The notes beneath the pieces were generated by a model that saw only the letters and a program-made list of their open reading frames with translations, did no database searches and had not been told where the DNA came from. Made by a program: the position numbers and the translations under genes. DNA of 49,098 bases from Chloroflexota bacterium (GTDB lineage: Bacteria > Chloroflexota > Dehalococcoidia > UBA2979), in the NCBI GenBank assembly GCA_003228125.1, contig QGNP01000003.1, forward strand, positions 78,475 to 127,572. Reading direction: 5' to 3'. Each line of letters opens with the position of its first letter. Position 1 is the stretch's first letter. Positions 45,706-49,075 of this stretch are shown here, piece after piece.

Positions 45706-46287
45706 CTAAGATAATAAAATTTTTACTACTGCAGTGGGCACATAAAGATCAACGGGCTCACCATGAGCTAACATAGTTCTTATTTCAGTAGACGACACTT
45801 GAGGGATATTATCAGAAAAAAAAATCACATTTTTGGGTATGTCAAAATCAAAATTATTTAAATTTTTATTATTTAACTTATTTCTTTGAAAAACAACAAT
45901 TTGTGCAATTTCAAACAGATTTTTGTAGTTTTTCCAATTAATAATTTTTTCAAAAGCGTCACTTCCCATAATAAGAAACATTTCAGTAATCCCTTTATTT
46001 TCCGACAACAACTTACTTAAAGTGTTAAAAGTATAAGAATGCTTATCCAGCATCTCTGTTTCAATAACTTTTATTTTGGGGTTGTTATTGAAAGCCAATT
46101 GAGCCATTTTAAGCCTCGTACTACGTGGATTAGCAAGTTTTTTTTTGACACCTAAAGGAGCACCCGTTGGACAAACATACAACAAGTCTAGACTAAGTTT
46201 TTTTATTGCTAAACTTGCCATTTGAATGTGACCATAGTGAGGGGGATCAAAGGAGCCCCCAAAATAACCTACCTTCACAATTGCCAT
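45706..46287 (-). CDS. nadD: Nicotinate-nucleotide adenylyltransferase
   Basis: This is a 193-residue protein. The nucleotidyl-transferase motif GGSFDPPHYGH at residues 9-19 and the late VSSTEIRTML (ISSTxIR) are both intact, as is the CPTGAPLGVKKKLA region. It makes nicotinate adenine dinucleotide from NaMN and ATP in NAD synthesis. The start overlaps the obg stop by 13 bases, and the obg-nadD order is common in many bacteria, so it is co-transcribed with obg. Confidence 0.95.
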   Translation of the reverse strand: MAIVKVGYFGGSFDPPHYGHIQMASLAIKKLSLDLLYVCPTGAPLGVKKKLANPRSTRLKMAQLAFNNNPKIKVIETEMLDKHSYTFNTLSKLLSENKGITEMFLIMGSDAFEKIINWKNYKNLFEIAQIVVFQRNKLNNKNLNNFDFDIPKNVIFFSDNIPQVSSTEIRTMLAHGEPVDLYVPTAVVKILLS

Positions 46288-47453
46288 CTTATTTTTTTAT
46301 TAGCAACATAAACTATTTCATGATTACGCACATTGAGTCGTGACACATCCCTGTTTACGCCCAACAACTTCATTCGCCTAAAAAACTCTGATCTTGATTC
46401 ACTGTTATTAAAATCAAATGTTTCTGCTAAAAGCTCTGGAGTAGATCCAGAAAGCACTGCCTGTCCTTCAGGGTTTCTTTCTAGAACATATTTTTTTTTC
46501 TGTACGTGTGGTTTTTTAACAACCAATGGTTCTTCTTTATTATTGTTTTGGGTGTCAGGTTTAGTTTTTTTAATTCTTGCTTCCAATAAAGAAATTATTT
46601 TAAAAACAACGTCAGGGTTGCTTGTTTTTCCTTGAATAAAGTCAGAACTATTGTTGTTTGTAATTGTATTAACAACAGATATACAAGGAATCTTTTGATT
46701 CAAAGGAGTAGTAAAAAAACTATAGTCAAAATCACTGGTTTTTTCTTCATTCAAAATCAATAAAACAAGCTTGGCATTTTTAAAATAATTCTCGTCAATA
46801 TTTTTATTAGGTAAATCAATAAAAGTCAAAAAAACCTTCCCTTTTTCATAAGAACCTCTGTTAGGTGACGTGGTTGTATAAGGATAACTGGCCGTTAAAC
46901 CATTAGAACCTGTTATGGCGTTAATTAGCGTTGTTTTACCAGAATTAACATCGCCAATAATCAGCACGTCAGCATCCGTGGCTGGTTCTATTTCTATATT
47001 TTTTATCTCTCCTTGTTGGCCTAATTGAGAAAATCTCGGTGCCTGTCTGTTGGGTAAAACAAAACTACTGTTTCCCCAACCGCCTTTTCCCCCTTTAGCT
47101 ATTTTAATATAAGTGTCTTTGGTTTTTGATAAAATTTTTGTTTTGTTACCAACTTTATCAACTTCCCATAAATTATAATTACTTGGAATAGAGATAATTA
47201 TATCTTCACCAGAATGACCGTTCTTGTTGTTTGGTTCTCCGTCATTGCCGTTTTTTGCTTGAAAGGTATCGTTGTTTTGTAGGGATAGTACGTTGTCGTT
47301 CTTTTTTGCCACAAACTTTATCAGGATGTCCCCACCTTTCCCCCCTGTTCCTCCGTCTGGTCCTCCTCTTGGGACTTTCCGTTCTCTTTTAAAGGAAACC
47401 TTTCCGTTCCCTCCTTTACCTGCTTTAATGAAAATGTTAATTTTTTTGTTCAT
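46275..47453 (-). CDS. obg: Obg/CgtA-family protein with a degenerate GTPase domain
   Basis: This is a 392-residue protein. Residues 1-160 form the Gly-rich Obg fold, with KAGKGGNGKVSFKRE, GGPDGGTGGKGGD and KGGKGGWGN. A P loop, GDVNSGKTT, is at 167-175 and a switch I-like YPYTTTSPNRG at 190-200. The G3 position, normally DIPG, reads F-I-D-L-P-N-K-N at 211-218. The usual NKxD (G4) is absent where VVNTITNN stands, and the domain is about 20 residues short. The C-terminal Obg domain (from KYVLERNPEG, 321) is intact. Obg normally assists 50S assembly; whether this one binds or cleaves GTP is unclear. Confidence 0.92.
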   Translation of the reverse strand: MNKKINIFIKAGKGGNGKVSFKRERKVPRGGPDGGTGGKGGDILIKFVAKKNDNVLSLQNNDTFQAKNGNDGEPNNKNGHSGEDIIISIPSNYNLWEVDKVGNKTKILSKTKDTYIKIAKGGKGGWGNSSFVLPNRQAPRFSQLGQQGEIKNIEIEPATDADVLIIGDVNSGKTTLINAITGSNGLTASYPYTTTSPNRGSYEKGKVFLTFIDLPNKNIDENYFKNAKLVLLILNEEKTSDFDYSFFTTPLNQKIPCISVVNTITNNNSSDFIQGKTSNPDVVFKIISLLEARIKKTKPDTQNNNKEEPLVVKKPHVQKKKYVLERNPEGQAVLSGSTPELLAETFDFNNSESRSEFFRRMKLLGVNRDVSRLNVRNHEIVYVANKKIRWQL

Positions 47454-47454
47454 A

Positions 47455-47671
47455 TCTTCTTCTTTTAATAATCTATATATATTTTATTATTTATATAGTA
47501 GTAGTAGTAGGGGTGTTTAGTACGTTGATAACTACCATATAACAGTTTAGGTCTATTGGGGAATGTTTGTGTATATCTCTTTATAATTTTGTTTGTTTTT
47601 TTGTTAAAAAAAATTAATATTGTTTTATTAACAGTGTATACACTGTTAATTTTTAAGTATGTTTATAACTT
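47455..47671. other. oriC: Probable chromosomal replication origin (oriC) between dnaA and obg
   Basis: Read from dnaA toward obg, this 217-base gap holds a 24-nt palindrome (47627-47650) and the DnaA-box-like TGTGTATAT (47568-47576, eight of nine to TGTGTATAA). Next come CGTTGATAA (47523-47531, seven of nine to TGTGGATAA), a G tract (GGGG at 47510-47513), five TAG units (47496-47510) and a nearly pure AT stretch (about 47463-47495). In minus-strand sense this is box, C-rich tract, 3'-GAT-5' trios on the opposite strand, then AT-rich DNA. That is the order of the basal unwinding system in the B. subtilis dnaA-dnaN gap. No coding frame is convincing here. Confidence 0.65.
47627..47650. repeat. 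24-base perfect palindrome downstream of dnaA
   Basis: ATTAACAGTGTA at 47627-47638 is followed directly by its exact reverse complement at 47639-47650. The centre GTGTATACAC places a DnaA-box-like TATACAC on both strands (seven of nine matches to TTATACACA each way). It lies 21 bases after the dnaA stop. It could be a DnaA or other regulator site, or a transcript end structure; on the minus strand no T run follows. Confidence 0.6.
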
Positions 47672-49075
47672 TTAAGCTATGTTTCGTTTTCTTTCAATAA
47701 GTTCTTTTAGGTTAGATATGTCTCGACCAATTTCTTTGTCTATAGACATTCCTTTGTCCATTTTTCTCCAGCCATGGTGTATGGTAGAGTGGTCTCTATT
47801 GCCAAGAGATCTTCCTATTTGCACTAAAGATATATTTCCTATTTCTCTTAAAAGATACATGGCAATTTGGCGAGGGTATGCGAACCTTTTCTCTCGGTTT
47901 GTAGAAAAAAGATCTATATTTTTTAAATTATAATATTCGCATATTACATCAATAATTAAATCAATAGATGGCGGTGAAAAAAGAGTGGTTTTTTGTAAGT
48001 GCCTAAGTGTGCTCTCAACGAGTTGTTCGCTTATGTCTTCGCCGGTTAATTTTGAAACAGCCACAAGCCTTGTCAAAGAACCTTCTAGTTCGCGAACATT
48101 GTTAATACACATATGGGCAATTTTATATAAAATATTGTTGTCTAGGTGAATTTGATGCTCTTTAGCTTTTTCTTGTAAAATTGCAGTTCTAGTTTCTACG
48201 TCGGGCACTTGTAGGTCGGCAATCATTCCCCATTCAAACCTTGTTCTCAGTCTCTCTTCTAAATGATTAATTTGACTTGGGTTTTTATCTGAAGAAATAA
48301 CAATTTGTTTGCCTGCTTCGTATAGTTCATTAAACGTATGAAAAAATTCTTCTTGGGTTTGTTCTTTTCCAGCAATAAACTGAACGTCATCAATTAATAA
48401 AATATCTGTTTTTCTGTAGATGTTTCTAAACTTGTTCTGTGTTCTTTTTTGGATGGATGATATTAATTGGTTTGTGAATTGTTCAGCTGAAAGGTAGGCG
48501 ATATTAAGGCCTTTAGTTGTTGCGGCATGACCAATTGCATGCAAAAGGTGTGTTTTTCCTAGGCCTGGTCCTCCGTATAAAAACAAAGGATTGAACTCGT
48601 TTCCTGGTTGCGCAGAAACTGATTGAGAGGCAGCAAAGGCGAGCCTGTTGGCAGCACCAACAACAAATCGTTCAAATGTATAATTTTTGTGTAGTGGCAT
48701 TTTTTCTTTTTTTAATTCGTGTTCCCTTTTCTCTTTTTCTAATGAGCGAGCGCTATTTTTTGCATGAATGTTGGTTGTGTCTACGGGCTTTAGGGCGACA
48801 GCCTCTAGTTTGTTTTCGTTTTCTTGAGGAATGGTTTTAAAAACGATATCAAGTGATTCACCAGAAATTTCTGCGATTGTTTTTAAAATAAGTGGTTTTA
48901 ATCTTCTTTCTAGCCATTCGTTTACAAACTCTGATCTTGTACCTACTATTAACGATGATTTTTGAAAAGAAAGTCCGATAGTTCCCTTAAGCCAGGTATC
49001 ATAGTTGGGACTAGAAATTGCTTCAGATAAAGACTTTAGAGAGTCTTCCCAAAGCTGAGATGCATCAATTTTCAC
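47672..49075 (-). CDS. dnaA: Chromosomal replication initiator protein DnaA
   Basis: This is a 467-residue protein with a GTG start at 49075 and GGAG seven bases upstream. Domain I is residues 1-85. A charged Lys/Glu linker lies at about 85-125. Domain III has NYTFERFVVGAANRLAFAA, Walker A GGPGLGKT at 168-175, Walker B LLIDDVQF near 226-233, and RTRFEWGMIADLQVPD. Domain IV ends with the DnaA-box helix, here GNRDHSTIHHGWRKM. The RDHST core is kept, but the following residues differ from the usual TVLHACRKI-type helix. It initiates replication; the probable origin is immediately downstream. Confidence 0.98.
   Translation of the reverse strand: MKIDASQLWEDSLKSLSEAISSPNYDTWLKGTIGLSFQKSSLIVGTRSEFVNEWLERRLKPLILKTIAEISGESLDIVFKTIPQENENKLEAVALKPVDTTNIHAKNSARSLEKEKREHELKKEKMPLHKNYTFERFVVGAANRLAFAASQSVSAQPGNEFNPLFLYGGPGLGKTHLLHAIGHAATTKGLNIAYLSAEQFTNQLISSIQKRTQNKFRNIYRKTDILLIDDVQFIAGKEQTQEEFFHTFNELYEAGKQIVISSDKNPSQINHLEERLRTRFEWGMIADLQVPDVETRTAILQEKAKEHQIHLDNNILYKIAHMCINNVRELEGSLTRLVAVSKLTGEDISEQLVESTLRHLQKTTLFSPPSIDLIIDVICEYYNLKNIDLFSTNREKRFAYPRQIAMYLLREIGNISLVQIGRSLGNRDHSTIHHGWRKMDKGMSIDKEIGRDISNLKELIERKRNIA

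Follow-up and report, generated by a model that had tools for sequence, protein, structure and literature searches.

The 218-bp gap between dnaA and obg in this uncultured Chloroflexota bacterium raises the question of whether chromosome replication starts there and, if so, how the two strands would be opened. The gap lies near the end of the window, i.e. the whole 49,098-nucleotide stretch that was analysed, and this end is also the end of the contig (G000:C3:78475-127572). The initial annotation had read the gap as an oriC with DnaA-trios. Its sequence details for the five trios, the boxes, the palindrome, the AT-rich tract and the genes were all correct upon re-checking, and a weak second box abutting the first had been missed. 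Based on the sequence, its conservation and the GC skew, the gap is almost certainly the chromosome replication origin. The features of the region, in minus-strand order from dnaA, are:

47672-49075, minus strand: dnaA, with the candidate origin gap downstream of it
47454-47671: the dnaA-obg gap (218 bp), candidate oriC (downstream half, oriC2/incC-like), placed by the GC-skew switch
47627-47650: perfect 24-bp palindrome
47568-47576, minus strand: box-like site ATATACACA
47523-47531, minus strand: distal DnaA-box-like 9-mer TTATCAACG, 7/9 to TTATCCACA, 12 bp from the trios
47514-47522, minus strand: proximal weak DnaA-box-like 9-mer TACTAAACA, 5/9, abutting the distal box; position kept in the family alignment
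47511-47513, minus strand: CCC spacer from the proximal box to the trios
47496-47510, minus strand: candidate DnaA-trio array, five CTA units on the box-sense strand (plus strand: five 3'-GAT-5', or five TAG)
47463-47495: AT-rich stretch beyond the trios and next to obg, one G or C in 33 bp
46275-47453, minus strand: obg, the gene that the trio array accompanies when dnaA moves

This order recalls the basal unwinding system (BUS) of B. subtilis (incC/oriC2, DnaA-box#6/#7 and DnaA-trios; PMC6669920, PMC8287927, PMC10721633), which likewise lies downstream of dnaA and consists of co-oriented boxes, a short spacer, 3'-GAT-5' trios on the opposite strand and AT-rich DNA beyond. Published distances of the trios from the DnaA box peak at 10-13 bp with a limit of 16 bp (PMC8287927), and the same-sense TTATCAACG falls within the peak. 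The BUS criterion of Pelliciari et al. 2021 is at least three trios of the form 3'-NAN-5' (PMC8287927), and the window has five, each of them canonical. The capturing residues are conserved as well, as E183, N187, I190, I193, R202 and E228 of B. subtilis each have an identical counterpart in the DnaA of the window (alignment to 8btg). Both in relatives and in a 182-kb piece of the window genome, the skew switches at the array, which places the element at a chromosome origin. The match in geometry and strand proposed in the initial annotation is thus borne out for the features that sequence can test, with the tandem box as its weak point: the proximal box agrees in just five of nine positions, and better doublets occur in relatives, e.g. 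GTCCACAgCATCCACA in G002. Tandem boxes with the outer one nearer to consensus are the commonest BUS arrangement, not an obligatory one. Unlike in B. subtilis, the boxes of the window are weak, the adjoining gene is obg rather than dnaN, many trios of the relatives have a C for the middle A, and GC-rich relatives have no AT-rich stretch; a stretch similar to that of the window is found in the same-genus G001. A sigma-70 promoter search of the gap returned none.

By analogy with B. subtilis, DnaA would bind the box-like pair in the minus-strand sense and then polymerise 3'-to-5' along the plus strand, with each protomer capturing G and A of one 3'-GAT-5' trio. The AT-rich 33 bp beside obg, the probable site of first strand opening, would then melt and allow helicase loading, and any looping of the DNA would likewise follow the B. 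subtilis model.

The array itself stands out from its background. With at most one mismatch, CTACTACTACTACTA has a single match in the whole assembly (1,106,751 bp), namely the array, and the gap match to TAGTAGTAG is the sole one in the window, where 0.31 are expected. Box-like sites alone do not exceed chance (the window has 64 near-boxes vs 77 expected), and 47523-47531 is credited as a box for one reason, its conserved position beside the trios. The site at 47568-47576, listed as DnaA-box-like in the initial annotation, found no support, single near-boxes being at chance level. The palindrome, also listed there, likewise lacks support as a part of the origin. It is present in a single copy in the genome and was not seen in a by-eye comparison with a same-genus relative. 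It was also considered as a dnaA terminator and rejected, because it is terminator-like on the plus strand only.

Box-like sites, short spacer and trios were found just upstream of obg, in the same sense, in all 38 family genomes that are readable here, the window's included; the DnaA proteins of this set are ~50-57% identical to that of the window outside its genus and genus g9. Genomes with a contig break at this place or in which the genes were not found were left out (G018, G066, G031, G033, G062, G063). Most arrays were located by the regular expression [CT]NA with a free middle base, and those of G002, G017, G024, G025 and G030, where the expression failed or dnaA had moved, were found by eye. 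The conservation in relatives called for in the initial annotation is therefore present for the block; the gap outside it is too divergent to align by eye, and class-level relatives are mostly without a recognisable array in the dnaA-obg gap. In relatives the units are a mix of CTA, CGA and TGA. In principle, repeated TAG units in AT-rich DNA could be a microsatellite, as trinucleotide repeats do arise by slippage and near-boxes are common in the window, but its uniqueness in the genome argues against chance, and slippage is disfavoured because the mixed units are kept in phase at one place in the family alignment. Such an explanation has next to no probability left, and the origin reading gains from the same observations.

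Conservation also separates the array from dnaA. In G024, G030 and genus g9 (G009, G023, G065), dnaA is no longer directly upstream of obg and the array stays in place. Alternatively, the array could regulate obg from its 5' side, as a protein-binding site or within an mRNA leader, and lie near the origin by coincidence. Such a role would suit an array that remains upstream of obg when dnaA moves and that, in the window, spans the bases 43-57 nt ahead of the obg start. However, in three genomes with dnaA inverted and moved, the skew minimum stays upstream of obg together with the array. The array is preceded by a box-like pair and a short spacer, an Rfam search returned no family at or near threshold, and like arrays occur near a DnaA box downstream of dnaA in unrelated phyla (compared relative to dnaA only). 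Regulation of obg is thus a very improbable explanation for the block, and a role in replication is preferred.

The skew was one of the checks proposed in the initial annotation, and at the level of contigs the larger part of that expectation held. In contigs of five relatives, the cumulative-skew minimum lies 12-67 bp from the array start:

G001: minimum 145188, array 145176-145190, 174-kb contig
G021: minimum 413704, array from 413657, 543-kb contig
G009: minimum 156646, array from 156695, 165-kb contig
G065: minimum 27546, array from 27596
G023: minimum 4468, array from 4401

Because local composition (a C-rich gap and a G-rich obg start) helps to fix the exact base of the minimum, the array neighbourhood was masked and the best single skew step was sought in 1-kb windows. 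This step fell at the array in G021, G009, G065, G023 and the joined contigs of the window genome (182 kb), where the skew rises from -0.036 to +0.139. Its distance from the array was 5 kb in G001 and 8 kb in G030, a genome with weak skew. The switch at the block therefore holds in relatives and in the joined contigs, but the cumulative curve of the 182-kb piece reaches a lower value at 72.5 kb than it does at the array, perhaps due to a rearrangement. At fourfold-degenerate sites, the coding-strand skew of obg exceeds that of dnaA in 28 of 28 related genomes, gene-specific codon use being uncorrected; as both genes are co-directional, transcription alone should not separate them. Over whole contigs, the transcription strand dominates the raw fourfold-site skew in the window genome and G001, and fourfold skew was therefore used just for the dnaA-obg pair and G021. 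Together, the block and the skew narrow the position of the origin to ~100 bp for an uncultured family of Chloroflexota.

On the other side of dnaA, contig C7 continues C3 with an exact 123-bp overlap inside the 5' end of dnaA, and two further features lie between dnaA and the divergent next gene, 23 bp apart:

C7:153-161, plus strand: perfect DnaA box TTATCCACA
C7:176-184, minus strand: perfect DnaA box TTATCCACA, inverted relative to the first

DnaA boxes thus occur on both sides of dnaA, a feature of bipartite origins, with the upstream pair perfect and the downstream ones weak. With this perfect inverted pair on the upstream side of dnaA, a bipartite origin like that of B. subtilis is probable, and the window's DnaA probably reads the standard box. 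The initial annotation had tied the imperfect boxes to an unusual domain IV helix. The HSTV/IHHGW motif is found in all family DnaAs examined except those of genus g9 and coexists with perfect TTATCCACA boxes, and the helix was therefore rejected as the cause of the weak boxes.

Could replication rather start upstream of dnaA, in the gap to the divergent gene, with the downstream block as an accessory? The genome has just five perfect DnaA boxes, two of which lie there, and an inverted pair with 22-23 bp spacing recurs in some genera (G001, G011, G010, G026; one mismatch off in two cases). Against this, the downstream block occurs in every readable genome, whereas the 450 bp preceding dnaA gave no box, even with one mismatch allowed, in about ten of the examined relatives. 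The skew also switches between the two genes rather than upstream of dnaA, including at the fourfold sites of G021. An origin confined to the upstream side is accordingly most unlikely. It is highly probable instead that the dnaA-obg gap carries a BUS and serves as the half of the origin where unwinding occurs; the upstream inverted boxes probably form the second half and/or a site of dnaA autoregulation. This would resemble the oriC1 and oriC2 of B. subtilis (PMC13220808), where DnaA boxes flank dnaA and the unwinding elements lie downstream, with the difference that the window genome has just two upstream boxes, inverted and 23 bp apart. A literature search returned no paper dealing with replication origins in this group, though such work may exist, and the BUS would thus extend to a lineage without published origin work that we could find.

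The element is otherwise of the known BUS type, and what is novel is a variant trio code at the level of the family. Over units 1-5 of the 38 genomes, the middle base on the box-sense strand is T in 107, G in 79, C in 3 and A in 1, which on the captured strand corresponds to A 107, C 79, G 3 and T 1 (A or C in 186 of 190). The third base is A in 179 of 190 units, and the first is C or T throughout, as set by the search pattern for most arrays. Parsimony on the DnaA tree, which gives an estimate and assumes unit homology across the tree, yields T>G 24, G>T 9, T>C 2 and T>A 1 on the box-sense strand, so that ~33 of 36 inferred middle-base changes are exchanges between A and C on the captured strand and the transition to G is almost absent. 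Gap composition would favour the reverse on the box-sense strand (C 0.320 vs G 0.248), yet the middle base shifts to G and rarely to C.

In the cryo-EM structure, Asn187 of B. subtilis DnaA makes contact with the middle A at its amino group, and C can replace this A in vitro, with growth in vivo being faster with C than with G or T (all PMC10721633). The A/C variation in the family fits such recognition of an amino group, and this would represent natural support for the base-capture model, the family serving as a natural mutagenesis experiment on the trio. It therefore seems likely that the family code is 3'-(G/A)(A/C)T-5', with C repeatedly replacing the captured A, and that genus g9, without the capturing Asn, reads canonical trios differently. 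Searches that demand 3'-NAN-5' would miss or undercount such trios. Outside the family, many Patescibacteria and one Negativicutes record (among the records L103, L122, L123, L135, L150 and L151) show sense-strand trio arrays, mostly CTA/TTA, beside a DnaA-like box downstream of dnaA; C is rare at their captured middle position.

In g9, the sole DnaA found is 25-30% identical to that of the window, has Ala (G009, G065) or Ser (G023) at the Asn187 position, LIDG instead of LIDD as Walker B, and a domain IV without the RDHST motif; that of G009 still matches Bac_DnaA and Bac_DnaA_C. Its gene is inverted beside nadD (L216:5382-6698 in G009, also L217 and L218). The origins of g9 retain CTACTACTACTA arrays, with trio array and skew switch upstream of obg. 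As trios are kept although DnaA has lost the capturing Asn, their reading in g9 would have to differ. Alternatively, g9 may possess a second dnaA, as its genomes are 72-92% complete.

A separate observation concerns Obg of the window genus (G000, G001; 46275-47453 in the window). Compared with other family members its GTPase domain looks degenerate, with no NKxD, DLPN or DIPN in place of DMPG, and a shortened switch region.
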